The notes under the pieces are model-generated. The model did not search any database. It worked only from the letters and a program-made list of their open reading frames with translations, and was not told where the DNA came from. This document shows positions 4,832 through 25,646 of a stretch of DNA of 25,813 nucleotides, one piece after another (position 1 is the stretch's first letter; every line of letters starts with the position of its first letter). The stretch covers positions 1-25,813 of IMG/VR virus record IMGVR_UViG_3300025280_000145; one strand, given 5' to 3'. The position numbers were made by a program, and so were the translations under genes. This DNA comes from a virus.

Positions 4832-4947
4832 ACTTTTCTTCTCCTTGGATGAGCCGTCTTATCAAGAGCATCGGCTGTCCGTCTCTTTGCATGACAATAG
4901 CTACAGTAGGTAGGACTGTGTGGGTAGTCGTACTGTTCACATGCCAT
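4810..4947 (-). CDS. Small zinc-finger protein
   Basis: 45 residues starting MACEQYDYPHSPTYCSYCHA. Cys3, Cys15, Cys18 and His19 make a one-knuckle zinc site of the kind seen in very small phage proteins, followed by a basic tail (HPRRRKVW). AGGA lies about 9 nt before the ATG at 4947, and that ATG directly follows the stop of the upstream gene. The 3' end overlaps the primase start by 22 nt and carries the primase ribosome-binding site. Function unknown; DNA or RNA contact, or help to the primase, would be guesses. Confidence 0.55.
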   Translation of the reverse strand: MACEQYDYPHSPTYCSYCHAKRRTADALDKTAHPRRRKVWLSQRT

Positions 4948-4949
4948 AA

Positions 4950-5504
4950 TTAAAATCCTGCCATCTGGGGTGGGTCATCTTGGTGGCGTACACCCCGAAT
5001 GATTTCTGTGTGAACGTCTATCAGTTCGTTTAAACTATCTTCATGTGATTTCATAATCTCAAACCAAGTTGATACTGGCGAGGCTTCGGTTGCTGTACTT
5101 GGGACAGATGCTATCGTAGTAGCCAGAGACTGCATTATTTGATTGTAAGCAACTGATCTAGATATAACGATGTCCTTATTGCTTGCAACCTGTTCCCAAG
5201 ATGACGCAACAGGCTTATCATCTACTGGCTTATCATCTGCCGTCTTGGCACGAGAGAGATACCTATTCGTATACCCACGCTCGTCTTTTTCGTAATACTC
5301 AATTTCGTAGTGGCGTTTGGATGGGCCATCTGCTTCTGCATCAAGTAGTGCCTTTATCTCCTCGGCATTTTCGCCGTCCTTGTAGCCTTCCAGTCTTGCT
5401 GATAGGTCAATGACGCTACCTGTATCAGTAGTGAAAGCAAACTTAGCAAGCCAGGTTGCTTTTGATTCCTTCATCTCGCTAACTATTCCTGTAACTCTAG
5501 GCAT
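4950..5504 (-). CDS. Hypothetical protein, possibly ssDNA-binding
   Basis: 184 residues. The first 90 form a run of predicted strands (TGIVSEMKESKATWLAKFAF, SVIDLSARL, HYEIEYYEKD, NRYLSRAK) that could be an OB-fold. A polar linker and a helical region follow. The protein ends DDPPQMAGF, an acidic, Pro-containing tail with a terminal Phe, which recalls the DDDIPF tip by which bacterial SSB recruits partners. It lies just upstream of the primase and helicase genes in the same operon, where phages often encode SSB. This is pattern-level inference with no family match. The start at 5504 is preceded by AGGAAA. Confidence 0.5.
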   Translation of the reverse strand: MPRVTGIVSEMKESKATWLAKFAFTTDTGSVIDLSARLEGYKDGENAEEIKALLDAEADGPSKRHYEIEYYEKDERGYTNRYLSRAKTADDKPVDDKPVASSWEQVASNKDIVISRSVAYNQIMQSLATTIASVPSTATEASPVSTWFEIMKSHEDSLNELIDVHTEIIRGVRHQDDPPQMAGF

Positions 5505-8424: not shown

Positions 8425-8739
8425 TTAGTATTCAATTGGAAACATAACCGTTATTGCTTGCGTACCATCTTCATCTGCTGTGTTGCGTGTGATCCATACT
8501 TGGTGTTTAGGGGTGTTATAGTTTGCTAGAATTCGACCATCCCATCCATTATTGAGTGACTCTAGGTCTTCATCGTTGTGCTTTATATCTTCTTGGCACA
8601 TGTCACCCCAATCACCACGATTAAATCTAAGTATTGATTTCCAAACAAACTTTGCGAACGGTTCATCGTCAGCTATTTTATTATTAATCGCTGCTGTAAA
8701 TACCAGCCTATGTTGTCCTGCTTTTAACGTTTTAACCAT
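8425..8739 (-). CDS. GDWGD/FPxEY small conserved protein
   Basis: 104 residues. The pattern RGDWGD (41-46), a following E/D-N-rich helix, ILANYNTPKHQVWITRNTADEDGTQAITVMFPIEY to the C-terminus, resembles a conserved small protein found on plasmids, conjugative elements and phages; I recall the pattern (GDWGD, then a strand, then FPxEY at the end) but not a named function. These genes often sit near antirestriction or ArdC-type genes, as here. CAGGAG precedes the ATG at 8739. The upstream leader contains alternative hairpins (8770-8825) that might control it. Confidence 0.6.
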   Translation of the reverse strand: MVKTLKAGQHRLVFTAAINNKIADDEPFAKFVWKSILRFNRGDWGDMCQEDIKHNDEDLESLNNGWDGRILANYNTPKHQVWITRNTADEDGTQAITVMFPIEY

Positions 8740-8769
8740 GTTGTTTATCTCCTGACCCTTGTATTATTT

Positions 8770-8825
8770 GGTGGCCTTGTCACCACCTATGGGGTTTACC
8801 CACCCCCAACTAAGGGGGTGGTGAC
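8770..8825 (-). promoter_or_regulatory. Leader with mutually exclusive hairpins
   Basis: Three stems are possible: GGTGG (8770-8774) with CCACC (8783-8787); CCACCCCC (8800-8807) with GGGGGTGG (8814-8821), perfect 8 bp; and GTCACCACC (8779-8787) with GGTGGTGAC (8817-8825), perfect 9 bp. The third excludes the other two. This lies between the ArdC stop (8843) and the next start (8739), as in an attenuator or riboregulator. No T-tract is seen, so the outcome is not predictable from sequence. Confidence 0.45.
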
Positions 8826-8842
8826 TCACCATATATTGATTC

Positions 8843-9775
8843 TTATTTCTCCTGTGTATTTAGTATGTAGTCTGCAGATTTAACGCCTTGACTCGCTGCA
8901 TAGACAATCAACTTTCTATCTGCTTTGATAGCTTTTTTCCAGTTGTCTATATATGATGCTGAGTTTTGAATCGTTGATGTTATGTTTACAGCATCGCATA
9001 GGAATGCACTACTAAATTCTGCGACTAATTCTTCTTGTCCGTAGTTGTCAGAACCAAAATGAGTCGCACCCTTTTGGCCTTTTTTACGTGCTAGAGGTTT
9101 TGATGTTGAGTGACTCATTTCATGAAATAGCGTTGAATACATCTCAGGCGCATTGTAGAAGCTATCTTTTAAGGTCATGTTTATTCTATGTTCTGAGGGT
9201 ATATAGTGCGGTGTTTGTGTGCTTGTCCACTCGATACCAGGCGCGCCGTCAGACTCAAGGTATGCCGTTGCTACTGCTTCAGCTTCTGCTATTGTATCTG
9301 GGCTATTCTCAGGTTTTGTACCTGCATTACCACCATCAACTTTCTCAAGTGGTTTTAATTCTAAGCCGTCAACCTGTTCTACATTGAATACTGTATGTCC
9401 ACCAAAATACCAAATCATGATTTGCTTTTTTTCCATCTCGCCTGTATCAGGATTTTCAATTTCACGCTCATGCTTTTGAGGATTCCACCATCCAACATGT
9501 AATCCCTTTTCACCCCTACGAACCATGCCACCCCTAGATTTGGCCTGATTAAATGTTATCCATCTTGGGTCAACATAACCTTTTACTCCTGCCATTAATC
9601 CCAACATAAGCGCATTTAATCCGCTGTACTCACGGCCATCAATGCTACGTTGTTGGCCATATTCTTTGGATGCTTGCCAATATGGTTTTTGCCAAGGAAT
9701 AACGCCTGCATCCAGTAGTTCAATTATTTGGTTTGATACCTTGTCAAAACTGTCTAACCTTCTTGATTTATTCAT
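8843..9775 (-). CDS. ardC: ArdC-like antirestriction protein (ssDNA-binding plus zincin)
   Basis: 310 residues. The N-terminal domain (about 1-140) shows the ArdC/DUF1738 pattern: IPWQKPYW (26-33), SGLNALML (51-58), RWITFNQAKSRGG (71-83), RRGEKGLHV (86-94) and YFGGHTVFNVEQVDG (123-137). The C-terminal domain is a zincin metallopeptidase-like MPTase-PolyVal domain with HEMSH (218-222) and the downstream EELVAEFSSAFL (248-259), whose Glu is the likely third zinc ligand. ArdC proteins bind single-stranded DNA and shield incoming DNA from type I restriction; in phages they are made early. The gene is one of the first in the leftward transcript, fitting that role. AGGAGG precedes the ATG at 9775. 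Family call is firm; peptidase activity is not proven for the family. Confidence 0.88.
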   Translation of the reverse strand: MNKSRRLDSFDKVSNQIIELLDAGVIPWQKPYWQASKEYGQQRSIDGREYSGLNALMLGLMAGVKGYVDPRWITFNQAKSRGGMVRRGEKGLHVGWWNPQKHEREIENPDTGEMEKKQIMIWYFGGHTVFNVEQVDGLELKPLEKVDGGNAGTKPENSPDTIAEAEAVATAYLESDGAPGIEWTSTQTPHYIPSEHRINMTLKDSFYNAPEMYSTLFHEMSHSTSKPLARKKGQKGATHFGSDNYGQEELVAEFSSAFLCDAVNITSTIQNSASYIDNWKKAIKADRKLIVYAASQGVKSADYILNTQEK

Positions 9776-9838
9776 GTTTAAATCCTCCTAAGATTTTGTA
9801 CTTCTTAATTGATTCTTGTTGATTAGTTATACTTTTGT

Positions 9839-10174
9839 TTATTTCCGAACCCATCTATCTTTTATAATCCATTGATTAGGATGCCATTTGAAAGTCCTAT
9901 GAGTTTTTAACCATTGCTTGACCTCATCTAGCGTTTTGAATTCTTCATCTACAAAAAAACCTATTGTTAAGTCTTGATTGATCTGGTCTAACTTCCATAC
10001 AACCTTTCCTTTTAGCCCAAATATATCTGACCACATAGCAGTTTTGCGAACTAGAAACGGTTTCCCCATTTTGGTATGTAGGATGAGATATTCAAGGTCA
10101 CCAAAAAATTCCTTGTTTGCTGCACTAAACCATGTAGGATTAGCGTTTCTTACTTCAGCTATTCTTAATGTCAT
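9839..10174 (-). CDS. Small early hypothetical protein
   Basis: 111 residues. NPTWFSAANKEFFGDLEYLILHTKMGKPFLVRKTAMWSDIFG looks like a short conserved phage domain in which an aromatic N-terminal segment is followed by FFGD and a basic strand, but I cannot name the family. The C-terminus is Trp- and Lys-rich (WLKTHRTFKWHPNQWIIKDRW). It is the first sizeable gene after the main leftward promoter, so it is expected early. The ribosome-binding site GGGAG lies in a roughly 33-bp leader that is repeated before the adjacent tiny gene. Confidence 0.6.
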   Translation of the reverse strand: MTLRIAEVRNANPTWFSAANKEFFGDLEYLILHTKMGKPFLVRKTAMWSDIFGLKGKVVWKLDQINQDLTIGFFVDEEFKTLDEVKQWLKTHRTFKWHPNQWIIKDRWVRK

Positions 10175-10286
10175 GTTTAAAATTCTCCCTTTTATAATTG
10201 TATTTAGTAACCAAATTCGTCTAAGATGTCTAAGTCTTGGATATCGTTATCATTCATGTTTAAGATTCTCCTTTTTAACTGTATTA
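10172..10286 (-). repeat. Duplicated translation leader (two copies, 10172-10205 and 10255-10286)
   Basis: Two stretches begin CATGTTTAAAATTCTCCC (10172) and CATGTTTAAGATTCTCCT (10255) on the plus strand and stay similar to the GTATT about 30 nt on, differing by a few substitutions and indels. Each carries the ribosome-binding site and ATG of a leftward gene. The same ATG-proximal part, CATGTTTAAATCCTCC, precedes ardC. They look like copies of one translation-start cassette. Confidence 0.6.
10204..10257 (-). CDS. 17-residue acidic peptide
   Basis: MNDNDIQDLDILDEFGY: seven acidic residues, no basic ones. It has a strong AAGGAG 8 nt before ATG (10257) and lies between the leftward promoter and the first larger gene, inside the duplicated leader. 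It could be a leader peptide whose translation affects the genes behind it, a tiny antirepressor-like or DNA-mimic peptide, or a remnant of a longer gene. Only the ribosome-binding site and position support it. Confidence 0.4.
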   Translation of the reverse strand: MNDNDIQDLDILDEFGY

Positions 10287-10287
10287 A

Positions 10288-10304
10288 CGTAGAATGATTC
10301 TACG
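10288..10304. promoter_or_regulatory. Palindromic operator at the leftward start site
   Basis: CGTAGAAT-G-ATTCTACG is a perfect 8-bp inverted repeat around one base. It begins about 9 nt downstream of the -10 element, so it covers the expected transcript start and first bases. This is the position of a repressor operator; the protein is not identified, although the small HTH protein at 11063 is a candidate. Confidence 0.6.
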
Positions 10305-10312
10305 CTGACTAG

Positions 10313-10341
10313 AGTATTTCACACTTTGGTTATCTTGTCAA
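10313..10341 (-). promoter_or_regulatory. Main leftward promoter
   Basis: Leftward TTGACA (10341-10336), a 17-nt spacer and AATACT (10318-10313) make a sigma70-type promoter with a perfect -35 and a moderate -10. It precedes the whole minus-strand block and faces away from the rightward operon. The -35 sits in ACTTGACAAG, which recurs at the internal promoter near 6170. Confidence 0.6.
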
Positions 10342-10418
10342 GTGTTCTCTTAGATTAGCTAGGCGTTCATAGCTTCAAGGATTGTATTGGGGTTGCGGAG
10401 ATGAGGAGAAAAATTGCC

Positions 10419-10523
10419 ATGTTTGCAAATCCTGCTTATAAAAATAGAGCGCCATCATTCACGCCATCATTAAAGGATACAGAAGATAAGAGTCTAAGAC
10501 TAAGCAAGGCATGCAGTAAATAA
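10419..10523 (+). CDS. Possible 34-residue peptide in the control region
   Basis: Reads MFANPAYKNRAPSFTPSLKD and ends KACSK, basic overall. GAGGAG lies about 12 nt upstream of ATG 10419; an in-frame ATG at 10401 would give 40 residues. It is on the plus strand between the divergent promoters with no clear promoter of its own. The composition could be protein-like but no family or partner is evident, so this is tentative. Confidence 0.25.
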   Translation: MFANPAYKNRAPSFTPSLKDTEDKSLRLSKACSK

Positions 10524-10626
10524 GCTATCAAGGCGTACAAATATCTGCACGACTCGTAAGCCAGGCAGCTGCCAGGCGATGCGAATTCGTCGCTATAGTG
10601 CATAGAGTGATTACGCTATTCGTAGC

Positions 10627-11550: not shown

Positions 11551-12007
11551 ACAGAACACTTTCCTTACTGTGTTTGCTTTGACCGGGTCTATGACCAAGG
11601 CAGCAGCGGCTATAGATGTCCCGCCGACTAATGCCTATAAGTGGAAGCAAAATGATGTTTATGGTTTTAGGGAGAAGCTGGAGAAGGCCACCGCAGAGTT
11701 TGCAGATAACCTTCATTACCTTGCACTAGATACGGTTAATAACCAAAAGCCGTCCGATAATCCTGCGCTTAAGATATTTATGTTAAAGGCTTGGCATCCA
11801 CGGTATAAGGCCGTTGATACGAGCGTAACCGATGATGTTGGTAAGGAAGTTATGGCAGAGCTTAAAAGGGCGATGCGGTCCGAGAAGGATGCCCCAAAAA
11901 AGCCAGCAACTAAGCGGGATGACAGCAATCAGGTGATCGAACAAGCAAACCAGATACTTGCGAGTAAGACTAATGATAGCTCCCCAGACGCAGGTAAAAC
12001 CGAATAA
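11504..12007 (+). CDS. terS: Terminase small subunit
   Basis: 167 residues from ATG 11504, which follows GGAGGGTAGTT; an open frame reaches back to 11384 but those codons would run through the upstream gene. The N-terminal HTH, FLTVFALTGSMTKAAAAIDV, then NAYKWKQND and FREKLEKA, is the usual start of TerS proteins, which bind the packaging site on phage DNA. A central helical region (about 55-105) would form the oligomer and the C-terminus is polar and basic. It sits directly before the large subunit, which starts 35 nt inside its end. The call rests on the HTH pattern and position. Confidence 0.8.
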   Translation: MPGKTGSSDPKITIAKQNTFLTVFALTGSMTKAAAAIDVPPTNAYKWKQNDVYGFREKLEKATAEFADNLHYLALDTVNNQKPSDNPALKIFMLKAWHPRYKAVDTSVTDDVGKEVMAELKRAMRSEKDAPKKPATKRDDSNQVIEQANQILASKTNDSSPDAGKTE

Positions 12008-13340
12008 CAAGGTAACAGACTATATATTCTCCCGCCTTGGGTTTGATGGTACAGACCTTCAAGCAGATATACTGGAGTGCAGTAAACGCTTTGTACTTGT
12101 TGCGGGCGGTGAGCAGGCCGGGAAATCTATGGTCGCAAGTAAGTTTCTTATCAGTAGGTTCCTTAAAAGTGACGGAGCCGGACTGTACTGGCTCGTGGCC
12201 GCAGACTATGAGAGAACCAGGGCAGAGTTTGAATACCTCACAGAGGATTTTGCCGCTCTCGGTATCCTTAAAGAAGTAACTAAACGTGTAGACCCAGGAC
12301 GCATTATTCTTTCAGATGGGACACGTATTGAGACGAAATCCGCAAAAGACCCAAGAACCCTGGCTATGAAAGCCCCGGACGGAATACTTGGATGCGAGGC
12401 ATCACAGCTAGACCTTAACTCATACTACCGGCTAAGAGGCAGAGTAGCCCCGAAACGTGGATGGCTGTTTTTATCAGGTACGTTTGAGGGAAGCCTTGGA
12501 TGGTATCCGCAGCTATTTTCTGCATGGCAGCTTCCGACAGATGACGAAGAGTCCTTTTCCCTGCCATCACACTCTAATAGCTACCTCTACCCTGGCGGTA
12601 AAACTGACCCCGAGATACTAAAGCTGAAGGCACAGGCATCCGATGAGTTCTATATGGAACGAATCGAAGGCATACCCTGCCCTCCGGCAGGACTTGTGTT
12701 CGGTGAATTTCGTGCCGATATACATACAGACCCACAGGCAGAGTGGGTTCCAGGAGAGCAGGTATATCTATGGATGGACCCCGGATACGCAGGAGCATAT
12801 GCAGTAGTTGCAGCGCAGGAAATTAACGACCAGATTGTTATTTTTGATGAGATATATGAACAGGGAATGACAACAGATGAGATTATAGACATAGCCCTCA
12901 ATAAACCCTGGTGGAAAGATGTCCACTCAGGCACGATTGACATAGCTGGATACCAGCATCAGGCCATGAGCGCACCCGCAGAGATGTGGATGGACCGAAC
13001 CGGGATATATCTTGATGCTCAGAAGATAAGAATTAACGAGGGAACAGAAAGATTAAAGGGATTTCTAAAGCCAGACCCTATCACAAACCGCCCAAGAGTG
13101 GTATTCTCTCCGAAATGTAGGGGAACGCTGTCAGAATTTGGTGCGGTTCCAAGCCCATTTGACGGACAGACTCGTGCATATCGGTGGAAAACAGACAGGG
13201 AAGGCAATATAGTAGGCGAAACGCCAGAAGATAAAAATAATCACGCCATAAAAGCCACTATCTACGGACTTGTAAGTAGGTTTGGCTACGGATATGTAGC
13301 TAACAGGGAATTTATAAAGGTAAAACGGTGGGCTAAATAA
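11973..13340 (+). CDS. terL: Terminase large subunit
   Basis: 455 residues from ATG 11973 (a TTG at 11958 is possible). The ATPase domain has Walker A GGEQAGKS (45-52), a Walker B-position strand ILGCEASQ (138-145) with Glu but with Cys where Asp is usual, and motif III LFLSGTFEG (about 165-173). The nuclease domain has YLWMDPGYAG (first catalytic Asp, about residue 267) and the C-terminal DKNNHAIKATIYGL (about 420-433) with the D-x3-HA pattern. TerL pumps DNA into the prohead and cuts it. It overlaps TerS by 35 nt and the portal start by 1 nt (TAATG). Length and motif order are normal. The Walker B change is the only odd point. Confidence 0.9.
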   Translation: MIAPQTQVKPNNKVTDYIFSRLGFDGTDLQADILECSKRFVLVAGGEQAGKSMVASKFLISRFLKSDGAGLYWLVAADYERTRAEFEYLTEDFAALGILKEVTKRVDPGRIILSDGTRIETKSAKDPRTLAMKAPDGILGCEASQLDLNSYYRLRGRVAPKRGWLFLSGTFEGSLGWYPQLFSAWQLPTDDEESFSLPSHSNSYLYPGGKTDPEILKLKAQASDEFYMERIEGIPCPPAGLVFGEFRADIHTDPQAEWVPGEQVYLWMDPGYAGAYAVVAAQEINDQIVIFDEIYEQGMTTDEIIDIALNKPWWKDVHSGTIDIAGYQHQAMSAPAEMWMDRTGIYLDAQKIRINEGTERLKGFLKPDPITNRPRVVFSPKCRGTLSEFGAVPSPFDGQTRAYRWKTDREGNIVGETPEDKNNHAIKATIYGLVSRFGYGYVANREFIKVKRWAK

Positions 13341-15213: not shown

Positions 15214-18012
15214 ATGGCAAGAGAGCAGCAAAAATTTGAACCATTTGGTTGGTATGACGGTATTCTTGAATCTGCCGCAGGCGATGGAAAAGGCGTGACC
15301 GGGGATTTTCTTGCAGGAATTCCAGCAGATGATCCGCAGCCAACCAAGTGGTCTACCGATGTAGACGCAGCCAGCTTTGCCACGTACCGTAAGCAAGAGC
15401 AGGAGGTTGCCTCAAAAGCAAGGAATATTGCAAGCGTATTTTTAAATATGCCGGATAATGCTAATCTCGTTTTTAACAGAGATCCGTATTCGGTAATGAG
15501 TCCAACCCAAAAAACAACATTTGATAGAATCACAAAAGACTCAGGGCTTTCTACCTTGCAGCTACGGCAAGCGCTTAGAGATCGTGCGATGGAGATTGCA
15601 ACAGCTCGGCCAGATGCAGGTGATCGACCTGTGCGGCCATCCTCGCTGCAGTACGGACTGCAGACTTTGCGAGACTTGCCAGGAGGCATACAGTCCGGCC
15701 TGGCTAAAACGCTTAAGGAAACTTATGCAGACCCCGGAAGTGACTTTCAGAAATTTCTTGGAGCCGTTACTGGAGCCGCTACTGCTCCATACAGGGCTAT
15801 AACAGGGGCGAGTCAAGGCAAAGATACACCACTAAATCCATTTGTAACAGGGCAAAGATCAATTGGGGGCATTGGATTTAATCCAGAGTTCTGGCAAGTT
15901 GCTACGCAGCAACCTGCTGTTACTCCAGAGGCTCTTGGTCAGATTCGGGCAACAAGCCTTGGCGAGGCTCAGGCTGGACCACGACCAGCGGTAGTTCCTA
16001 CTCCCCTACAAGATCACCTTGCAACCGGAGGACCCGGACAAGAAACCGCAGCACCTGTAGACTATACTGGGGGGCTAGGTAAATATGACCCAATATTTAG
16101 AGAGTTCGCCCTCTCAGTAGATGAACTGGCAGAACAAGAAGAGTTAGGATTGCCACGACACCTTCGGGGAGCCGTCTCGGGCGAAGTGCTAGACACTCAG
16201 GCCGAACCAGGACTCCTAGAAAAAGGTAAAGGATTCGTAAAATCCTTGGCTGGCCGTGTTGGGGAAGCCGTGACTGGATCTACTGACGAAGAAGAGCAGC
16301 TAGTAATCCCTGCTGATGCCCGTGTTGAGGAAGCAAGACAGATATCCCGACAGACTATGGGAAGACTTGATCCTATTAAGAATAAAGTTCTTCCCGACCT
16401 GTCTAAACTAAAGGCAGGCTATTACCAAAGCGCATCTGATAGACTAGCCGAGCAGTACGGACTTGTGCAACCCCCAGGAAAGATAGCATCAAAGCCCTGG
16501 TCATTTGGTGAAATTACAACCGAGATAGCCAGACAGATCAAGGATAATGAAAAGAAATATCCAGACCTGACAGATGCTGAGATTCGTGATATTGCTAGAG
16601 AAATTGCGACTGACTGGCAGAGGGCTGCCTCTAACATTGACCCTACAAAAGATATTGACCTAGCTACAGCCGAGGCAGATGCGGTAGCTAAACCATCCAT
16701 AGCGATAGATGAAGCACCGGGCGCAGTGGGAGACCCGGATGTGGCAGAAAAAAAATGGTCTACTGATGTAGATACTGCTGGTACAGCTACAGGGGAACAA
16801 CCTACGGTGGGGCGAACTGCTGCACCAGGGGCTACCGCGGCAACGACTGGCGCTGGTACAACGACTGGCGCTGGTACATCGACTGGGCTTGCACGGGAAG
16901 CTGTCGACCTGTATGCCCATCTCTATGGAGACCCGGATGACCGCTACTGGGGACTTAGCCCTGGGGCTATATATGACTCTGTAGCTCGACAGTCTTTAGG
17001 AGGCACGGCCAATCTTGCATCTGTGCAAAACAGGTTGCAGAACATGGAAAATGTGAACTTTGGTAAGTTCCTTCTTCAGCAGCGATTAGACCCAGTTGGG
17101 TGGACTGATGCTGACCGTATGACTTATGGTGACTGGCTTGCCAAGGGATTTACCACGTCTGAGAATGAGTTCTTTAATCCAGACCAGATGCAAAGAGGAT
17201 GGGACTCGCTAGTTGAATCGTCACTTAATTTAGGGAAAGCAACATCGCCAATGTCCTATGAAGGAGATGTGCAGGAGATTGCCAAAAACGCAGAATATTC
17301 TAGAAGGATTGCTATGGCCCATGCAGGAATACGAGAAGGTGGGTATGGAATCCAAAGACTCAGGGAAGTAGCATTTAACAGGCTATATGATAACTATAAC
17401 GATTATCTTTATACCACTCCTATCGGTGAGGAGATTGGGTTTGCCGGATGGCTTTCGCAGCAGGAAGGAACTCCGTGGTATGTCGACCCCACAGCTCCAA
17501 CTGAAACTGCATTGGCCGATGCCACAAAAGAAAGATATGATACCGGGACATCAGCCTTTGGAATGGAGACAGGCGCAGATACTGCGGGCATTACCGCAGG
17601 GCAGGCCAAAGCATACCAAAATCTACAGGCGGCAGATGCTGACAAAGCACAGGCTCAGAGTCTATCAGCCGACCGGATACTTGCATCTAATGTAATGAAC
17701 CAAGGTGCTAATGGAGGGATGCCGGGCGCTAATGGCGCAGGTATCCCCGTAGACATGGGGTATCAGATTTCCAACGGAGGAGGATTCTCCGCAGGCCAGA
17801 TACCTATATCATCTACAGCACAGCCCCTACCAATGGCTCCGCTAGCAGGGAATCGATCTCAGGATGACATGGCAAGAGCATATGCGGCCATTACAAACTT
17901 CCCGTATGCACAGCCAGGTGCATCTCAAATGATGTTGGAAGAGGCTGAGAGATTAAGGAACCAACCAGTTGTAAGTTACGGTGGAAGACCACCGTCACAA
18001 TGGGTTATTTAA
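15214..18012 (+). CDS. Large putative virion protein (932 aa)
   Basis: 932 residues, starting 2 nt after the portal stop with AGGAGG upstream. No family recognised. The N-terminal 130 residues are helical and charged. KWSTDVD followed by an Ala-rich stretch occurs twice (about 44 and 514). A Thr/Gly/Ala linker around 525-555 is built from an 18-bp DNA tandem repeat. The region about 565-775 has Trp/Tyr-rich modules with MTYGDWLAKG and FAGWLSQQEG that also occur in the next two proteins. The C-terminal 120 are Gly/Ala/Pro-rich and end in SQWVI. No signal peptide or membrane segment is seen. Its position between portal and capsid genes and its low-complexity linkers suggest a head or ejected virion component; this is inference. 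Confidence 0.7.
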   Translation: MAREQQKFEPFGWYDGILESAAGDGKGVTGDFLAGIPADDPQPTKWSTDVDAASFATYRKQEQEVASKARNIASVFLNMPDNANLVFNRDPYSVMSPTQKTTFDRITKDSGLSTLQLRQALRDRAMEIATARPDAGDRPVRPSSLQYGLQTLRDLPGGIQSGLAKTLKETYADPGSDFQKFLGAVTGAATAPYRAITGASQGKDTPLNPFVTGQRSIGGIGFNPEFWQVATQQPAVTPEALGQIRATSLGEAQAGPRPAVVPTPLQDHLATGGPGQETAAPVDYTGGLGKYDPIFREFALSVDELAEQEELGLPRHLRGAVSGEVLDTQAEPGLLEKGKGFVKSLAGRVGEAVTGSTDEEEQLVIPADARVEEARQISRQTMGRLDPIKNKVLPDLSKLKAGYYQSASDRLAEQYGLVQPPGKIASKPWSFGEITTEIARQIKDNEKKYPDLTDAEIRDIAREIATDWQRAASNIDPTKDIDLATAEADAVAKPSIAIDEAPGAVGDPDVAEKKWSTDVDTAGTATGEQPTVGRTAAPGATAATTGAGTTTGAGTSTGLAREAVDLYAHLYGDPDDRYWGLSPGAIYDSVARQSLGGTANLASVQNRLQNMENVNFGKFLLQQRLDPVGWTDADRMTYGDWLAKGFTTSENEFFNPDQMQRGWDSLVESSLNLGKATSPMSYEGDVQEIAKNAEYSRRIAMAHAGIREGGYGIQRLREVAFNRLYDNYNDYLYTTPIGEEIGFAGWLSQQEGTPWYVDPTAPTETALADATKERYDTGTSAFGMETGADTAGITAGQAKAYQNLQAADADKAQAQSLSADRILASNVMNQGANGGMPGANGAGIPVDMGYQISNGGGFSAGQIPISSTAQPLPMAPLAGNRSQDDMARAYAAITNFPYAQPGASQMMLEEAERLRNQPVVSYGGRPPSQWVI
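16842..16887 (+). repeat. 18-bp tandem repeat within the 932-aa gene
   Basis: AACGACTGGCGCTGGTAC is present at 16842-16859 and 16860-16877, with a partial third copy to about 16887. It encodes repeats of TTGAGT and keeps the frame, lengthening a flexible linker. Confidence 0.8.
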
Positions 18013-18033
18013 TATTGACACAGGAGGAATTTC

Positions 18034-18741
18034 ATGCCATATGAATGGAACGAGAATTTAAGACAGTATATGTGGACCCCAGAAACAGGAGTGGGTAACG
18101 CTTTGCTCCCTGGCATTTCTCCTGACCTGACCATGCAGCAGGCTTACGGCCTTGCTGCTGGGCAGATGTTCCCAGGATACAGGGATGTACCGGGAGCGTC
18201 ACAATTTTTATCTAGAACAAGATCGCCCCTGTATGGGCGATATCTAATGGGCTATGATCCCGCCATGACTGCCTCACAGCAACCAACCTTTCAGGATTGG
18301 TTAAGCGGTGGGGCAGGAAGTCCTGCGTATCAGGCAGGAACAGATGTATGGAGAGCTTTCCCCGGACAGGGACAAGCTACAACTCCTTCGCCAGTAGGAT
18401 TTGATGGAGGATTTACGGCTGGCGATTGGGGCAACGTGGTGAACCTTGCAAGGAATATGGCGTTTGGCGCACAGCCCACGCAGGAACTTTCTACAATGCC
18501 TGGCTATAACCGATATGTAGATATGCTGGAAGATCCAGAGATGGCTTCATCTTTGGTTTCTATGGCTACATACGACCCTAGGGCTGGGTCAATCTACGGT
18601 GGACTAAAGCAGGCAGGGATGAACAGGGCATATCAGGACTGGGCAGCAACCAGACCAGAGGCAACCACGACTGACTGGCTTGGGCATGTAGCGGGACAAC
18701 AAGGAATGATAAGACCAGAATTTGAGGTGCCATATGCCTGA
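18034..18741 (+). CDS. Putative virion protein with DWL modules (235 aa)
   Basis: 235 residues; AGGAGG 6 nt before ATG 18034. It is aromatic-, Gly- and Met-rich, with no membrane segment. Two modules stand out: PLYGRYLMGYDPAMTASQQP then TFQDWLSGG (about 68-95), and YGGLKQAGMNRAYQDW then TTTDWLGHVAGQQG (about 188-223). The second aligns with the 932-aa protein (LREVAFNRLYDNY then FAGWLSQQEG). This suggests descent from a shared module. Likely structural because of its neighbours and composition; function unknown. The stop overlaps the next ATG by 8 nt (ATGCCTGA). Confidence 0.65.
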   Translation: MPYEWNENLRQYMWTPETGVGNALLPGISPDLTMQQAYGLAAGQMFPGYRDVPGASQFLSRTRSPLYGRYLMGYDPAMTASQQPTFQDWLSGGAGSPAYQAGTDVWRAFPGQGQATTPSPVGFDGGFTAGDWGNVVNLARNMAFGAQPTQELSTMPGYNRYVDMLEDPEMASSLVSMATYDPRAGSIYGGLKQAGMNRAYQDWAATRPEATTTDWLGHVAGQQGMIRPEFEVPYA

Positions 18742-19069
18742 AAACGGAAATAACTTTTGGCAGGATTATGTTTTAGAGGCCGCTCCAGAAGCAGCATACT
18801 ATAGTGCTGCTCCGTTTGGTGGAGCAGGTGGAGGGTTCTCTCCGGCTGAAGAAAAGTACTGGCGAGGCCAGTATGGAAATGTTATGAACCAGTACATGGG
18901 GAGTCTGGGGCAATCACTCAGGCAGGGACAAGATCCGTCTGCAACTTCATTTGTAGACTTTCTCTCGGCTTTCCCCTGGACAGATAGATATATGCAGGCA
19001 AGCCCAAGGAATAGACCGGGTTTTATCCCAACATCGAGGTTCGCACCAGCGGTTAGAAGGTTCTTCTAA
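18734..19069 (+). CDS. Small putative virion protein with DFL module (111 aa)
   Basis: 111 residues from ATG 18734, with GAGGTG 6 nt upstream; a TTG at 18722 is possible but less likely. After an Ala/Gly-rich N-terminus comes YWRGQYGNVMNQYMGSLG, then SATSFVDFLSAFPWTDRY (about 75-95), the same Tyr/Gly segment plus F-x-D-(W/F)-L pattern found in the previous two proteins. The end is basic and aromatic (FAPAVRRFF), which could be a docking peptide. Its stop overlaps the start of the giant gene by 1 nt (TAATG). Probably part of the same virion substructure. Confidence 0.65.
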   Translation: MPENGNNFWQDYVLEAAPEAAYYSAAPFGGAGGGFSPAEEKYWRGQYGNVMNQYMGSLGQSLRQGQDPSATSFVDFLSAFPWTDRYMQASPRNRPGFIPTSRFAPAVRRFF

Positions 19070-22000
19070 TGGTGATGCCACCCAATCAAAGATATAAAGC
19101 GGTTGCTCCTGAACCAGTAAACTGGTGGGATCGTATACGCTCGCTAGGCGGCATTGGCCCAGGGAGAAACATTCTGCCTATGGCTAGGATGTACCGTGAC
19201 GCACTTCCCGATATGTGGGCAAATTTTAGAGATACCGCACCGCAGCAAGTAACTTCAGTTAATCCGCTTACAGGAGAGTTTTGGCGGTCAGCCTTGGAGA
19301 TATCCAAGGGGCAGGCAATGCCTGTTTTACAAAGAGCCGCAGAACTTCCTGCGATTAAAGCACTTGGAACTTGGGGCGAGATTGTAGAACCAGGGGCTGC
19401 TGCTGCCTTCGCTAATGTACCTGGACTCAGAAAGCCTGGTGTTGTAGAGAGACAAAGACAGCTTCGGGAGGCCGGATACGGACCACTTGAATCTGTACAG
19501 GCAGCATATAGGCAGGCAAAGGGGGCAGGAGAAATACCGTGGTGGCAGTCAGCAGGAGTAGAAGCTGTTCTTGACCCAGTAGAACTTATCCCTGGCGTAG
19601 GAATAGCTGGAGGTGTTACAAAACTTGGACTTGGGGCTGGCAGGGCAGGACTGAGGGCAGCTACTGGCGTTGCGGCCAGAGAAGCAGCCGAAGCAGCAGC
19701 CGAAGCAGCAGCCCGTGAAGCACGAGTAGTAGCACCAATGCTAGAGGCTACCCCTAGACAGGTTGGCAGGGATGTAGCTGGGCTTTTCCCAGCTCCACCT
19801 AAACCGCCCATGGAACCAGTACAGGCACCACTTGATCCTAGTGTAATGGCACGTACTGCCCAGCAGTTAGAATTCCCTCCTGCCCTTGATCCGTCCCCAC
19901 GATTCATGCCAGACCAGCCGCTTTTCCGCAACCTAGGAGTTCAGAGCCAATTTCCAGAGCAAAGGGTGCTTCCCGGTATGCTTGAAGAAACAGCAGAAAG
20001 GATAGGTATGGACCCCTCGATTAGGGTTCCGGGTATGCTTGAAGAAATAGCGAGACTTGATCCGATGGAACAGGCTACACGGGATCAGCTACAAAGATGG
20101 ATTGCAGGGACTAAAGTGTCTTATCCCAGAGAGGTTTTCCGTCCGCAAAAAGGACTAATCCCACCAGGCAGGACTCCAGCGTTGCAGGCAGTTCCAGAAG
20201 GGATAGTTCCAGAAGGGATAGTTCCAGAAGGGATAGTTCCAGAAGGGCCTCCACCTCCTCGTGGACCAGCAGTACCAGAGGGAGCAATACCAGAAGATGT
20301 GAGGCCACCAGCACCACCCTCACGGTGGAATAAATTTATGCAGCAGTGGCATGACAAGTATTGGGTATCGAGAGGGTTTAGAGGAGGAGTAGGAGCGCTT
20401 AAAAGAATAAAGCCAGATAAGGCTGACGAAATATCAGAACTTAATTTTAATGTTTTAGTTAACCAGCATCCCCAAATTGGTCCTATGGCAATGATAGAAG
20501 CAGACGATGTGCAAAAGATAGCAGGGGTAAGAGCGCCCGGACTTGCTGAGAGAAAGGACTTTATTGATCTTGTTGGCAAGATGCAGGCAATACGCCATGC
20601 ACCTGAAGTATTTATGGAGTTCCCTGGCCGTAATATATACGGACAGTACAAAAAGGCAGACTTTGAGCCAGGCGGGCTACTCGACACAGAACTGAAGAAT
20701 CTTGGTAGGGATGCCGCTGAATCTGAGCAGCTATATCAAGAACTGACCGAGGCTGCAGACGAGTTTAGATTAGCATACAAAAAGATACGTGATGAAAATG
20801 TTGCCGAAGGATTTTACAGTCAAGAACTATCTGACCTACTACAAAATAGATACCCGTGGTATAGCCCGATTCATCTTATTGATAGGGACTATGCACCTGG
20901 AGAAATTTCAAGGTGGGTTCAGGATGCCAAAATTCCTCTTAAAAGGCTTACTGAAGAGGGTACAGAGGGACTTTTAGCCAACCCTATGGAGACGCTAAGG
21001 AAAACACTTATTTCCCACAAGCACAGAATACTAACAAATAAAATAAAAAGAACCATGATAGAGGACGCTAAATATGCCAACCATCCAGGTCTCAGGGAGA
21101 TAACAGACCCATCCGAAGCAGCAAGGCTACTAAAAGGCGCAGCAGATGTTGGCGATATCCCACTAGAACGTGGAGGAATCAAAGGGGAAATAAACTATGA
21201 AGCAATGTTTAGAAGGAAAGAAGACCCTAAAAATGCCCTGTCTTACTTTGACCCAAATGAACCTGGCGTTAAAAAGGTAGTCGAAGTTGGCGAGGATCTA
21301 TATAACGAAGCACAGTTTTTGTATCACTTCAAAGATGCCAGGAATATACTTACAGGATTTAATTCGTGGAGGAAGGCGCTACTTGTTTCATATAATCCTG
21401 CGTTTGCTCTTGCCAATACACTAAACGATACGTTGGTGGCTTTTTTTAGTAGGGGAATAATGCCGTGGCAGTCTTTTTCCAAACTAAAAAAGACGCTTCT
21501 TGATATGCAAACAGACCCGCTCGGAAGACTATATATGGTGACAGGCGGGCGTGGAAAGTTCTATGAAAAAGACCCGCTAGACGCTATCAGGGAAGCTGCT
21601 GGCGATCCACGAACACCGTGGGCGAAAGCTATTAAAGATATCCCACGAATGATAAAAGGACGGCGGGCCGAAGAGTATTCTCCTGCTCAACTTGCAGACG
21701 ATGCGAAAGTTATTAAAGACGCAGGAGGAGACCCAAGCACGGCAACCGAAGCAGTACGAAAGATCAATGCCGGATGGAATCGTTTTATAAAACAGCCCCT
21801 TGAGCGGGTTGGGCAGTCTGGTGAATTAGCACCTAGAATGGTGGCATTTGAAAACAAGATGAATGAACTTGCCCCAGGGTGGGCAGATGAACTGTATGTG
21901 TTAAGGCCAGGGAAGTGGCTACAAAGGATGGGCATCAGACTAAAAGTTAGGACACCAAGAGATAAGCTACCCGTATCTGACCCAGACTATAGAACGCCTA

Positions 22001-23895
22001 TCCAGATGAGAGACGAAGTCTACAGGCTATCCGAACTTCCTGCAGCCAGAGCTGCCGTTAATGATGCTACTGAAGCGACCATCAACTTCAGCAGGGGAGG
22101 GAGCAAGATAAAGATGCTAAACGATTACATACTGTTCCTTAACCCTGCTATGGAAGGAATGAAGATGCTCTATCGCCCTGGTCAGGCTCAAGGGTATCTG
22201 AGGTATTCTTCACGGCTTGCATCTGTGTCAGCAGGGCAGCTAGGGCTTACCTACTATAACATGCAGTACCCAGAGTATTTTGATATACCTTTGCACGAAA
22301 GACTAACCAGCGTTGTTGTTATGCTACCGTCTAGCGAGAAAGATTCATACGGCAACCCAGTACCCAGAAGGGTAAATATAATTCCAAAAACTCGTGAGTT
22401 TTCGGTTCTTCTTGGATCTGCAACATATATGATGGAAAAGCTCTATGCAGACAGCCCGGTTGAAACCGGCACATTTATTAAGACGCTTATACCAGAGGTC
22501 ACTCCGCTTAGTATGACAAAAACGGGATTCCCTCTACCCCCTCTCCCAGAGGCTGCGGAGTCTACCGCGGAAATAATAACCGGATATGATTTCTATAGAA
22601 ACCGAGACATAGTTCCAGAGCATCTAAAGAATCTTCCTGCTCCAGAGCAGTATCAGCCTTGGACTTCACCTGTGCTAAAGGATTTATCTGATTCTTTTGG
22701 AGATCAGGTTCCAGACAGCCTTGAGTCACCAATTATGCTGGACAAACTTTTTGAGACTTTTGGAGGGGGGGTTTTAAGAGAGGGACTAAACGCAGTTGAT
22801 CTTATATATGACTTGATAAAGGGCGGTTCAGAGCCAACAATACAAGAGCTTGCAGACGAGTACGATTCTATAGATAGCGCCGTGGACAGAAAAAGTTATA
22901 TGACGGCACTAACACCCGAGCAGCGTAAGGACGTTCTAACAGAAGTAGAAAGACCCACCAGGAGCATTGGGGGTGTCTTACAAAAGTTTCCCGGTATTGG
23001 TGGAGCGGGTCGCAGGGTTTATAAAGACTACGGAGGAGAAATCCGTCGCACAAAAGCCGAGGTCGCTGCCAGAGAAACAGAGACTGATATTGACCAGACA
23101 CGAAATGCAGGATCAGAGCTACGCTCCGTCAGGGACGATCAGCTTGAAAAGAAGAAGAGAGCAGGAACCACCGTAAACTTGATAGACCAGAGTCCATCTG
23201 GTATATCAGATAGGATACTGTGGAGAGAAGCGCATAAAAAAACTAACGCCCTGTACGAGGGCGCTCTTGTTAGTGTTAAGCTAAAGTACCCAAAGTCTAT
23301 TCAGGCCGCAGACGTAGATACAAGAAGGCGGTATTACGAGATACAACCCACAGTAGGCGAAGACACAAGAACCAGAGGGCAGGTACTTTTGTCTGAGTAT
23401 TATTCAATCCAGCCACAGGCAGAAGGACTTACTGAGCAGGATATTGCATTAGGTTTACTTGATTTTGATTTGTTCTACGAGGAAAGAGAGCAATTTAAAG
23501 ACAGCCTCTCTCCTTCTGATAAGAAGCTACTGGACGCAGAGATAAATGCAGGCAGGACCGAGGTAGAGAAAAGGTATTATTCTGACGTTGACGCTATAAG
23601 AGCATCTGGGTTCTGGGAGGTTATGCCTGTTCTTGTAGAAAACTACGGGCTTGGTGGACAGTGGGAAAAATATAAATCACTAAGAGGTATTGCCCGGTCA
23701 GAGTTCATTAAGTCTGACGAGGCAAAGATTCCTGGTATGCAGATCGGATTAAAAGAAGTTATTTCATATGCGTCTAAAGTAAGAGATAAAATGAGAATGG
23801 ATAACCCAGAACTTGAGCAAAAGCTACTGTACTGGGGATTCTACCAAACGCCTGCTATTGAAAAGGTATCAACAAGGCGAAGGCTAGGCATCTAA
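19069..23895 (+). CDS. Giant polyvalent-like virion protein (1608 aa)
   Basis: 1608 residues. The N-terminal 150 hold helices and then a hydrophobic Gly/Ala segment (VELIPGVGIAGGVTKLGLG, about 170-190) and an Ala-rich helix. Residues about 240-410 are Pro-rich, with PGMLEE repeated twice and VPEGI four times. From about 420 the protein is a long charged helical array. NSWRKALLVSYNPAFALANT (about 765-784) followed by LNDTLVAFFSRG resembles LPD38, a large-polyvalent-protein-associated domain of phage internal virion proteins. The C-terminal 400 are helical, with YYSIQPQ and LLDFDLFYEERE segments. No peptidase or nuclease motif was found. Such giants are typically packaged and ejected with DNA. 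It starts at the stop of the preceding gene and ends before a separate promoter. The ejection role is inferred. Confidence 0.75.
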   Translation: MVMPPNQRYKAVAPEPVNWWDRIRSLGGIGPGRNILPMARMYRDALPDMWANFRDTAPQQVTSVNPLTGEFWRSALEISKGQAMPVLQRAAELPAIKALGTWGEIVEPGAAAAFANVPGLRKPGVVERQRQLREAGYGPLESVQAAYRQAKGAGEIPWWQSAGVEAVLDPVELIPGVGIAGGVTKLGLGAGRAGLRAATGVAAREAAEAAAEAAAREARVVAPMLEATPRQVGRDVAGLFPAPPKPPMEPVQAPLDPSVMARTAQQLEFPPALDPSPRFMPDQPLFRNLGVQSQFPEQRVLPGMLEETAERIGMDPSIRVPGMLEEIARLDPMEQATRDQLQRWIAGTKVSYPREVFRPQKGLIPPGRTPALQAVPEGIVPEGIVPEGIVPEGPPPPRGPAVPEGAIPEDVRPPAPPSRWNKFMQQWHDKYWVSRGFRGGVGALKRIKPDKADEISELNFNVLVNQHPQIGPMAMIEADDVQKIAGVRAPGLAERKDFIDLVGKMQAIRHAPEVFMEFPGRNIYGQYKKADFEPGGLLDTELKNLGRDAAESEQLYQELTEAADEFRLAYKKIRDENVAEGFYSQELSDLLQNRYPWYSPIHLIDRDYAPGEISRWVQDAKIPLKRLTEEGTEGLLANPMETLRKTLISHKHRILTNKIKRTMIEDAKYANHPGLREITDPSEAARLLKGAADVGDIPLERGGIKGEINYEAMFRRKEDPKNALSYFDPNEPGVKKVVEVGEDLYNEAQFLYHFKDARNILTGFNSWRKALLVSYNPAFALANTLNDTLVAFFSRGIMPWQSFSKLKKTLLDMQTDPLGRLYMVTGGRGKFYEKDPLDAIREAAGDPRTPWAKAIKDIPRMIKGRRAEEYSPAQLADDAKVIKDAGGDPSTATEAVRKINAGWNRFIKQPLERVGQSGELAPRMVAFENKMNELAPGWADELYVLRPGKWLQRMGIRLKVRTPRDKLPVSDPDYRTPIQMRDEVYRLSELPAARAAVNDATEATINFSRGGSKIKMLNDYILFLNPAMEGMKMLYRPGQAQGYLRYSSRLASVSAGQLGLTYYNMQYPEYFDIPLHERLTSVVVMLPSSEKDSYGNPVPRRVNIIPKTREFSVLLGSATYMMEKLYADSPVETGTFIKTLIPEVTPLSMTKTGFPLPPLPEAAESTAEIITGYDFYRNRDIVPEHLKNLPAPEQYQPWTSPVLKDLSDSFGDQVPDSLESPIMLDKLFETFGGGVLREGLNAVDLIYDLIKGGSEPTIQELADEYDSIDSAVDRKSYMTALTPEQRKDVLTEVERPTRSIGGVLQKFPGIGGAGRRVYKDYGGEIRRTKAEVAARETETDIDQTRNAGSELRSVRDDQLEKKKRAGTTVNLIDQSPSGISDRILWREAHKKTNALYEGALVSVKLKYPKSIQAADVDTRRRYYEIQPTVGEDTRTRGQVLLSEYYSIQPQAEGLTEQDIALGLLDFDLFYEEREQFKDSLSPSDKKLLDAEINAGRTEVEKRYYSDVDAIRASGFWEVMPVLVENYGLGGQWEKYKSLRGIARSEFIKSDEAKIPGMQIGLKEVISYASKVRDKMRMDNPELEQKLLYWGFYQTPAIEKVSTRRRLGI
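20191..20249 (+). repeat. 15-bp tandem repeat within the giant gene
   Basis: GTTCCAGAAGGGATA is repeated exactly at 20191, 20206 and 20221, with a fourth copy complete for 14 bases at 20236. It encodes VPEGI units in a Pro-rich linker. Identical copies imply recent expansion by slippage, and frame is kept. Confidence 0.85.
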
Positions 23896-23967: not shown

Positions 23968-24756
23968 ATGGTTACAGATAATACAGAGCAAGTAGCTACG
24001 ACAACAGAGACTCCTACGGCCCCAGAGGCCGGAGGTGACGCTGTTGCCGAGCAGACAGAAACGCCTCTTGAAACTACTGAGGCCACGGCGCCAGAGGCTA
24101 CCGCACAGCCAGCAACCGAAGAAGCACCAGCTCCTACGGCTGCCACGGCTCCCCCTGCCGAGGTTGCTACTGAGCCGGTTCCCGGTACGGCTGAACCTGC
24201 CACCGCACCTGCGACACCGCAGTACACGCCAGAGCAGTTAGCTAGGATGCAACAGGACCTTGCTCAATATGAACAGGTTCAACGCAGGGCGGCACTACAG
24301 GGACAGGCTGACACATACAGAACCCAGCTAGAACAGCAGGGCTACCAGCCAGAGCAGGCTCAGGCTTTGTCTGCACAGTATATGCAGAGTGAGGAGCGCC
24401 AGCAGGAACTTATACAGCAGGCGCAAAGGTACGGAGATCATCTACAGGGAAAGCAGCAAGCCGCTGAAAAGATGGCAAAGATGTATAAACTGGGGATAGA
24501 TGATCTGGTTGAACTGCGTAGGTATGATGATCCACAATCTATGGAAAACGCAGCCAAGACGATTTCACACAATAGGCAGCGAGATGCGGAACTGTCGGCT
24601 CTCAAGCAGTCGCAAGTTCCACCGCAGCAAGTAGACAACAGTCAGGGTAGTCCAGAAGTGGCTGCTGATGAGGGAAGCTGGCTGGATCGGTATAATAGCG
24701 GAGACAGGACAGCTAACGCTGTTGCTGCTGCCAGAAGGGCAGCGGGTCTTCAATAA
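23968..24756 (+). CDS. Scaffold-like protein
   Basis: 262 residues. The first 85 are almost only Thr, Ala, Pro, Glu and Val, acidic and disordered. Residues about 88-165 are a Gln/Glu/Ala-rich coiled coil (LARMQQDLAQYEQVQRRAAL onward), then a mixed helical part and a basic C-terminal helix (NAVAAARRAAGLQ) that could contact the capsid protein. This composition and the place directly before the major capsid gene fit an internal scaffold. No protease domain is fused to it and none is recognised nearby. GGGAGGG lies about 10 nt before the ATG. Similar low-complexity proteins of other functions exist, so the call rests on position and shape. Confidence 0.7.
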   Translation: MVTDNTEQVATTTETPTAPEAGGDAVAEQTETPLETTEATAPEATAQPATEEAPAPTAATAPPAEVATEPVPGTAEPATAPATPQYTPEQLARMQQDLAQYEQVQRRAALQGQADTYRTQLEQQGYQPEQAQALSAQYMQSEERQQELIQQAQRYGDHLQGKQQAAEKMAKMYKLGIDDLVELRRYDDPQSMENAAKTISHNRQRDAELSALKQSQVPPQQVDNSQGSPEVAADEGSWLDRYNSGDRTANAVAAARRAAGLQ

Positions 24757-24776: not shown

Positions 24777-25646
24777 ATGGCTCAGACAGCGACAACTGGT
24801 AATTTGGAAAATGCCCAGAAGATTATAATCGCAGCGTCTCGATATACGGAGGAGCATAACGCTCCTGCTATGGCACTAATCGAGTCTTTCACGCTTCCGT
24901 CGGGGGCAAAGCAGCAGACCGTTCCGAAAGTGAATCAGATGACAATATCTGATCTTCAGGACGGAGTAGACATAATTGATGAAGAAGATATAGGTATGAC
25001 CACGGTTGATCTCACTGCTAGTGAGGTTGGTGCAAAGGTTATATTGACTGACAAACTTGTCAGGCAGTCAGCAGAGAATGTTTTCTCCATCGTGGGAAGA
25101 CAGCTCGGTGACGGCATGGCGAGAAAGAAAGATACTGACGTACATGCACTGTACTCAGGTCTTAATGGCGGGACTACGCTTGGAGCAGCAGGTGCAACCT
25201 TTAGCCTAGCTAACGTAGCTGCATCTATTTCCTATGCGAAGGCAAACAAGTTTGGTTCCCAGCTTTACATTCTCCAGCATCCTAATGCTGTATTTGATAT
25301 CGCAAATACTGCGGTAACTGCATCAGCTACCTACCCTGTTCCAAAGGGATGGTCTGAGGACTTGCTCGGAGAGTTCTTTAGTGGGCTTAGGCCACTCAAC
25401 GGTGTTCCCATCTTTGAAGATGGAAACCTTAGCGTTGATGCTAGTGACGATGCTATTGGCGTTATCGCTGACAAGAGCGCACTTTGTGTACTAAAGAGCG
25501 TTGACACCAAGACAGAGCGACAAAGAGATGCGTCTCTCAGAGCAACGGAATTGGTCATGGTGGCCGACTACGGAGTATTTGAGCTTGACGATTCTCGTGG
25601 AGCAGCTATGACTTATGATGCTGCTGCGATAACTACATCTGCATAG
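24777..25646 (+). CDS. Major capsid protein (HK97-fold type)
   Basis: 289 residues. After a short N-terminal arm, the sequence shows the style of a HK97-fold capsid: TVPKVNQMTISDLQDGVDI, then EVGAKVILTDKLVRQSAENVFSIVGRQLG (the long spine helix, about 83-111), the QLYILQHPNAVFDI strand-helix pair (about 161-174), and GVPIFEDGNLSVDASDDAIGVIADKSAL (about 211-238). The ending ADYGVFELDDSRGAAMTYDAA is typical of small phage capsid proteins that finish on a beta-strand followed by a flexible Ala/Thr tail. AGGAGG precedes the ATG. It follows the scaffold gene by 20 nt. The family is recognised by pattern and context, not by search. Confidence 0.82.
   Translation: MAQTATTGNLENAQKIIIAASRYTEEHNAPAMALIESFTLPSGAKQQTVPKVNQMTISDLQDGVDIIDEEDIGMTTVDLTASEVGAKVILTDKLVRQSAENVFSIVGRQLGDGMARKKDTDVHALYSGLNGGTTLGAAGATFSLANVAASISYAKANKFGSQLYILQHPNAVFDIANTAVTASATYPVPKGWSEDLLGEFFSGLRPLNGVPIFEDGNLSVDASDDAIGVIADKSALCVLKSVDTKTERQRDASLRATELVMVADYGVFELDDSRGAAMTYDAAAITTSA

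Follow-up and report, generated by a model that had tools for sequence, protein, structure and literature searches.

Ejection proteins of podoviruses, such as gp14, gp15 and gp16 of T7 and gp7, gp20 and gp16 of P22, are encoded as a cluster of a protein of ~200 amino acids (aa), a mid-sized and a very large one, of which the larger members diverge fast (PMC8954989). Proteins resembling gp14 measure 181-240 aa, those resembling gp15 431-982 aa, and the largest gp16-like protein listed there has 1337 aa. The slot between portal and scaffold can be filled by MuF minor head proteins (Mu gp30, SPP1 gp7; HTVC112P gp30), which have been described as fused to effector domains (PMC5512222). Also known are phage polyvalent proteins, very long products of virion genes that carry LPD-type domains such as LPD38 (PMC5512222). 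In the giant phage SPN3US several head proteins (family A with gp53/gp54, pfam12699, and family B) have arisen by duplication, and some of them are thought to be ejected (PMC5694885). Here we analyse a window of 25,813 bases (IMG/VR virus record IMGVR_UViG_3300025280_000145, positions 1 to 25,813) in which three successive genes, encoding proteins of 932, 235 and 111 aa (the last called g111), lie between a portal-like gene and the gene of a 1608-aa polyvalent protein. Judged from their sequences, the 932- and 235-aa genes almost certainly arose by duplication of a common helical domain of ~170 residues.

Results

A domain shared by the 932- and 235-aa proteins

The first-pass annotation of this DNA had noticed related segments of the type (F/A/T)-x(1-2)-(D/G)-(W/F)-L in three successive proteins. 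All three open reading frames (ORFs) are present and all contain the pattern: the 932-aa protein has it at residues 29, 637 and 743, the 235-aa protein at 85/86 and 211/212, and the 111-aa protein at 73. Five other structural proteins tested were free of it, and in none of 5000 shuffles of the residues did it occur as often as observed. The match at residue 29 (TGDFL) is not part of the module and is apparently accidental. There is more to the anatomy than first stated, with one domain copy in each larger protein and probably one smaller unit in the 111-aa protein.

An iterated hidden Markov model (HMM) seeded with the 235-aa protein alone picked up the C-terminal region encoded by the post-portal gene. 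As a guard against circularity we chose families by gene position (after the portal, n=38; before g111, n=34; g111, n=38), excluding four loci with both slots in one gene. The position-chosen 932- and 235-type families aligned over 164 columns with an hhalign probability of 98.6%, E 1e-15 and a score of 123.2. All other forward pairs, that is portal, major capsid protein (MCP), TerL and the 262- and 1608-aa proteins with these families and with each other, stayed at or below a score of 22.9, and reversed profiles at or below 21.0. Full-length alignments (39 and 28 rows, the former including two loci with a single gene in the slot) gave a probability of 98.9 and E 2.3e-17 over 166 columns. By BLASTP the two neighbours matched each other at E <1e-5 in 13 of 34 distinct genome pairs and at <1e-3 in 20 of them (best 35% identity, 2e-22), and no shuffled control of 34 fell below 1e-3. 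The two proteins of the window belong to the diverged pairs (marginal E of 0.022), which is why the likeness had looked like a motif at first. Searching the whole window for the domain at E<=10 returned only 16948-17469 and 18073-18729.

Both halves of the domain contribute to the match. Compared between the 932- and 235-type families, half-1 profiles scored 64.2 (shuffle maximum 12.9) and half-2 profiles 71.0 (shuffle maximum 13.5), with 100 column shuffles for each half-domain and g111 comparison. The segments singled out as the clearest pair, LREVAFNRLYDNY...GWL and LKQAGMNRAYQDW...DWL, are indeed alike and turned out to be this second half. In a domain tree of 64 rows (those of >=130 aa, i.e. 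at least 130, out of 70 distinct rows) 3 changes (shuffled mean 21.5) are required for 932-type and 235-type copies to separate cleanly, and a tree keeping one copy type together received p-AU (approximately unbiased test) 0.0457. As the tree does not split cleanly, it is possible that one old duplication was followed by local exchange or re-copying.

A probable smaller unit and the 111-aa protein

Each domain carries the helix-loop-F.DWL ending twice, with a pattern like G-[FLY]-x-x-x-Y-x-x-Y ... F-x-x-W-L, and the ~170-aa domain apparently is itself made of two copies of a smaller unit. Such a unit would consist of a short helix, a helix of 17-20 residues, a loop and the F.DWL helix. Joint half 1 scored 16.2 against joint half 2 (shuffle maximum 10.8), and the two 235-type halves 19.2 against each other (17.3). 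The 932-type halves were at chance against each other, 3 of 100 shuffles reaching the score, and the same applied to 932 half 1 against 235 half 2. The g111 profile scored 22.4 with each 235-type half and 21.2 and 18.4 with 932 halves 1 and 2, the highest shuffle being 15.7. All significant unit alignments share one register, that of the g111 unit included.

Since column shuffling preserves composition and not helix periodicity, we added a panel of 50 real ORF families of the loci. Seen from the domain side, g111 was the best of the 45 domain-free families for both halves (22.7, next 14.3; 21.2, next 13.8). Seen from g111 the panel was less clean, with 22.1 for a 235-type family followed by 20.0, 18.9, 17.9 and 17.3. 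The 20.0 belonged to an unlabelled family with a mean length of 1375 aa and would have meant a further copy in the very long neighbour; this candidate was dropped, as the domain halves score 13.8 at another place in it, or lower. A plain g111 HMM recovered only g111 proteins (61 of 61 hits) and missed the domain link. We consider it quite likely that the 111-aa protein carries one copy of the unit in the same register, and regard both this copy and the internal repeat of the domain as supported but not proven. The initial proposal of tandem duplication and divergence of an undescribed unit thus holds well for the 932/235 pair through the family matches and moderately for the 111-aa protein, whose link in the profile-profile alignments is the weaker one (18-24).

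Predicted structures and database searches

An AlphaFold2 (AF2) model of the 235-aa protein, built from a 50-row alignment including 932-type domains, reached a predicted local distance difference test (pLDDT) of 78.5 and a predicted template modelling score (pTM) of 0.74, with helices at 34-45, 53-72, 86-90, 97-107, 129-142, 158-166, 168-179, 187-206 and 212-221. The model of the 111-aa protein (42 rows, own family only) is of modest quality (pLDDT 72.4, pTM 0.56; helices at 8-16, 18-24, 37-44, 47-63, 73-79 and 84-88). A short helix, a 17-20-residue helix and an F.DWL helix follow each other three times across the two models: at 34-45, 53-72 and 86-90 in the first half of copy B, at 168-179, 187-206 and 212-221 in its second half, and at 37-44, 47-63 and 73-79 in the 111-aa protein. 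The predicted helix order of both proteins agrees with a common unit, as the structure prediction suggested in the first-pass annotation was meant to find out, with the reservation that applies to the 111-aa model.

None of the three window proteins has a Pfam or PHROG match, and searches of PHROGs, Pfam and PDB sequences with the 42- and 50-row alignments gave nothing but isolated hits, none with an E below 0.015. With the 235-aa model Foldseek found nothing better than E 3.3 in PDB and 2.6 in BFVD (best VIA-align Z 2.5), and with the 111-aa model no chain; missing PDB and BFVD matches do not establish a new fold. The domain is not described in the available parts of the literature on podoviral ejection and internal proteins, polyvalent proteins and paralogous head modules, nor in those on deep-ocean podoviruses, SAR202/Chloroflexota phages and gene transfer agents, subscription journals being mostly outside this scope. 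We regard the domain as uncatalogued and the three proteins as presumed virion proteins, paralogous and probably internal.

Relatives and gene order

Scans of IMG/VR viral contigs confirmed 206 portal and 539 MCP relatives, of which 80 each were kept. In loci spanning portal to MCP, the portal is followed by one to three variable genes and g111, then by a very long protein, a 262-like protein and finally MCP. The steadiest and most conserved of the three genes is g111, with family members in 57 of 163 sequences searched (many of them fragments); the genes between portal and g111 differ greatly in length among relatives. The domain is found in two genes between portal and g111 in 34 of the 42 loci holding both, many loci being near copies, and in three of the 42 (L078, L079, L151) the HMM sees no domain. 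Some position-chosen 235-slot genes (L128, L131, L145) look low-complexity and are without it. Across 16 whole records the domain model saw two copies in 10, one in 3 (one of these at a contig edge) and none in 3, and never more than two. Searches of phage records by tblastn with the 932-aa protein, the portal, the 235-aa protein and a relative's 235-type protein gave no match; with the 111-aa protein they gave ten rows from Streptomyces phages, all with an E of at least 5, which we take as chance.

The features of the window are listed in Table 1. The last 8 bases of the 235-aa gene are also the first 8 of the 111-aa gene. The names portal and scaffold rest on position, those of TerL and MCP on PHROG or Pfam: the 623-aa portal-like protein has no Pfam, PHROG or PDB match above chance, and the 262-aa protein no Pfam or PHROG family match above chance.

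Table 1. Coordinates of features in the window and of the head genes on one Chloroflexota contig
Feature	Position	Strand	Basis or remark
TerL	11958-13340	+	PHROG or Pfam support
Portal-like protein, 623 aa	13340-15211	+	Position between TerL and head genes
932-aa protein	15214-18012	+	ORF; directly after portal gene; AGGAGG ahead of ATG
Copy A of ~170-aa helical domain, residues 581-748 of 932-aa protein	16954-17457	+	HMM, profile-profile, whole-record search
Copy A, first half, ~residues 581-646, TYGDWL at 637-642 (17122-17139)	16954-17151	+	Half-profile comparison
Copy A, second half, residues 690-748, LREVAFNRLYDNY and FAGWL at 743-747 (17440-17454)	17281-17457	+	Half-profile comparison
235-aa protein	18034-18741	+	ORF; AGGAGG ahead of ATG
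Copy B of ~170-aa domain, residues 29-218 of 235-aa protein	18118-18687	+	HMM, profile-profile, whole-record search
Copy B, first half, ~residues 29-93, TFQDWL at 85-90 (18286-18303)	18118-18312	+	Half-profile comparison, model
Copy B, second half, ~residues 166-218, LKQAGMNRAYQDW and TTTDWL at 211-216 (18664-18681)	18529-18687	+	Half-profile comparison, model
111-aa protein (g111)	18734-19069	+	ORF; ATG at 18734
Putative single unit of 111-aa protein, ~residues 36-80, FVDFL at 73-77 (18950-18964)	18839-18973	+	Weaker than 932/235 match
1608-aa polyvalent protein, LPD38 at residues 1068-1251	19069-23895	+	Pfam; neighbour, not module carrier
262-aa protein in scaffold position before MCP	23968-24756	+	Position, as in HTVC026P, HTVC112P, HTVC202P
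MCP, HK97-type	24777-25646	+	Phage_capsid_4 33.7 bits (cut-off 27); PHROG major head protein
Contig L203 (companion loci L204, L205): portal; MCP; propeller	176-2011; 4483-5352; 8632-10581		

Neighbouring genes

The 1608-aa protein, encoded between the module genes and MCP, scores 63.4 bits with LPD38 (Pfam cut-off 27). It is like the described polyvalent proteins (PMC5512222) in its great length and in having an LPD-type domain among virion genes, and with its LPD38 it is of a kind thought to be injected; the module proteins themselves differ in that they are without LPD or clear enzyme domain. LPD38 is present in 5 of 14 relatives of the 1608-aa protein, and Pfam finds no enzymatic domain in the window's own. 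One of the 14 has a C-5 cytosine DNA methylase domain (E 5.9e-21), possibly an injected anti-restriction activity.

The nearest cultured relatives by MCP are HTVC026P, HTVC112P and HTVC202P (27.5-32% MCP identity). Their portal-scaffold slot holds another protein, which we call MuF-like by its sequence and place and not by family search. The window resembles MuF phages in using this same slot, the scaffold being named from position, and differs in having two paralogous genes plus a small one there. Pfam scans detected Phage_Mu_F in none of 39 932-slot sequences and 50 domain-alignment rows, nor in the window's 111-aa protein. In HTVC026P gp30 (L163:11402-13228) we noted a C-terminal extension with a zincin-like HExxH, which the HTVC112P and HTVC202P counterparts do not have.

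Four long records show no recognisable tape-measure gene. After MCP these records encode, where readable, proteins of ~140, 245, 125, 420 and 640 aa and then a long fibre-like protein; the 640-aa protein gives a weak propeller hint (PDB E 0.0099), and our reading is that adaptor and nozzle are among these genes. The 420-aa protein (L147:12801-14063) has a 285-aa counterpart (L203:7747-8604) in one of the Chloroflexota genomes described below, seemingly without the middle stretch. Taken by itself this stretch resembles a protein of Methanosarcina virus MetMV, which gives the impression of an inserted domain.

Chloroflexota genomes

Among 84,980 species genomes we found MCP relatives on three contigs at 60-61% identity (3 of 46 pattern matches confirmed). 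Because all three belong to metagenome-assembled genomes (MAGs) titled Chloroflexi, Chloroflexota or Dehalococcoidia, the result suggests that this marine phage group infects Chloroflexota, perhaps of the SAR202 type. From their isolate names we take the three MAGs to be of sponge origin. Each has a portal (E 1e-183 to 5e-186) and a propeller protein, as well as TerL at 55-57% identity on a different contig (L210-L212) beside non-phage-looking genes; these genes and that of MCP are intact. The domain and g111 had no match at E<=0.1 in any of the three genomes, MAG incompleteness and mis-binning being caveats, and the same models match phage records. An ECF-sigma-like gene, named by looking at its sequence, comes after the cluster on L203. 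The set is reminiscent of head genes that have been domesticated and dispersed, as in a gene transfer agent, and genomes that keep portal, TerL and propeller without the module fit a module that is not needed for particle building. A sample of 294 genomes from the class yielded one other portal match only, a weak one.

Discussion

What could the three proteins do? We tentatively favour paralogous internal-head proteins that assemble via the repeated unit for genome delivery. Their place would be the head interior, at or close to the portal, where the shared helical unit might hold the paralogues together as a mixed ring or stack. They might then leave the head together with the DNA and the 1608-aa polyvalent protein and help DNA and cargo into the host, and the fast-changing N-terminal part of the 932-aa protein could be fitted to host or cargo. 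The likeness to the ejection proteins of T7 and P22 lies in the clustering of one protein of ~200 aa with a mid-sized and a very large one and in the fast divergence of larger members, and the 235- and 932-aa proteins fall within the gp14 and gp15 ranges (PMC8954989). The module proteins most likely resemble ejection proteins in their way of working, and we do not file them as such, because the gene order differs and membrane helices are absent.

Several points weigh against delivery from inside the head. With 1608 aa the polyvalent protein exceeds the largest listed gp16-like protein (1337 aa), and the order 932-235-111-1608 between portal and presumed scaffold is unlike that of gp14-, gp15- and gp16-like genes (PMC8954989); the place of the genes also differs from T7 and P22. 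By a simple measure (Kyte-Doolittle 19-residue mean above 1.6) no membrane helix is predicted in any of 38 932-type, 34 235-type and 38 111-type proteins, unlike in gp14-like proteins. Gene position is what points to a virion location of the three proteins, missing genes are what point to a short tail, and the link to the 111-aa protein is short (~30-60 columns) with low hhalign probabilities (8-46%). The likely hosts, moreover, may have no outer membrane, and a T7-like channel through the periplasm would then be pointless. PHROG, Pfam, PDB-sequence and Foldseek searches found no known ejection protein that is similar in sequence or fold, though such proteins diverge fast. For the 932/235 paralogy the available part of PMC8954989 reports no counterpart in T7 or P22. 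SPN3US is similar in having several head proteins made by duplication, some of them thought ejected (PMC5694885); its genome of 240 kb contrasts with a record of 25-40 kb here, Pfam scans of the module proteins found no pfam12699, and by all searches made the two systems are unrelated.

Another possibility, which we hold to be unlikely, is that the unit is a tag for capsid targeting. By attaching to portal, scaffold or MCP it would carry otherwise unrelated cargo, such as the long N-terminal part of the 932-aa protein, into the head, with no delivery assembly needed. The domain does stay while the flanking parts vary greatly in length and sequence among relatives, and the slot is that of MuF, with its described effector fusions (PMC5512222). 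However, the post-portal gene shows no known enzyme domain (Pfam gives a weak GntR in 2 of 39 only), the 235- and 111-aa proteins leave little room for cargo, and the polyvalent neighbour is without the module as far as tested. A more elaborate form of delivery from inside the head appears doubtful to us: a separate delivery assembly of a podovirus-like group infecting Chloroflexota, in which five helix-F.DWL units from three genes would form a ring or stack at the portal and deliver a polyvalent enzyme protein with the DNA, and which would have been lost where sponge-associated Chloroflexota domesticated the capsid lineage.

The proteins adjoin the portal gene and are co-conserved with the portal, as one would expect of portal-side head-completion or assembly proteins that form a core for head building or a portal plug and stay with the particle. 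We think this improbable, since they are missing from the three Chloroflexota genomes, which have retained portal, MCP, TerL and propeller (although these sets may be inactive), and 932/235-type genes were not recognised in a small set of 11 proteins, whose E-values we do not use, for the nearest cultured relatives by MCP. Even less probable are non-structural late proteins, such as regulators or host-takeover factors merely located in the head operon; the lack of any family match would suit them, but in the loci spanning the region they always come after the portal gene and before the polyvalent, scaffold-position and MCP genes. That Gly/Tyr/Trp-rich low-complexity sequence only seems repeated would agree with the barely alike pair of the window by BLASTP and the short 111-aa match, but is extremely improbable, being refuted for the 932/235 pair by 164-166 columns at E 1e-15 to 2e-17 with unrelated and reversed profiles below score 23, and by up to 35% identity between the two genes in relatives, 1e-3 being reached by none of the 34 shuffled controls; chance may yet explain the match of the 111-aa protein.

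In conclusion, one uncatalogued domain family with a traceable history replaces three hypothetical genes that looked unrelated, and its profiles allow the detection of such genes in data that are now unannotated. The marine phage group concerned is widespread, as the 539 MCP relatives confirmed in one IMG/VR scan show. If the proteins are internal, a single small helical unit, copied several times over, would have furnished the interior of the head, and the proteins would offer an entry to the delivery of DNA and effectors by phages of hosts that possibly have no outer membrane.

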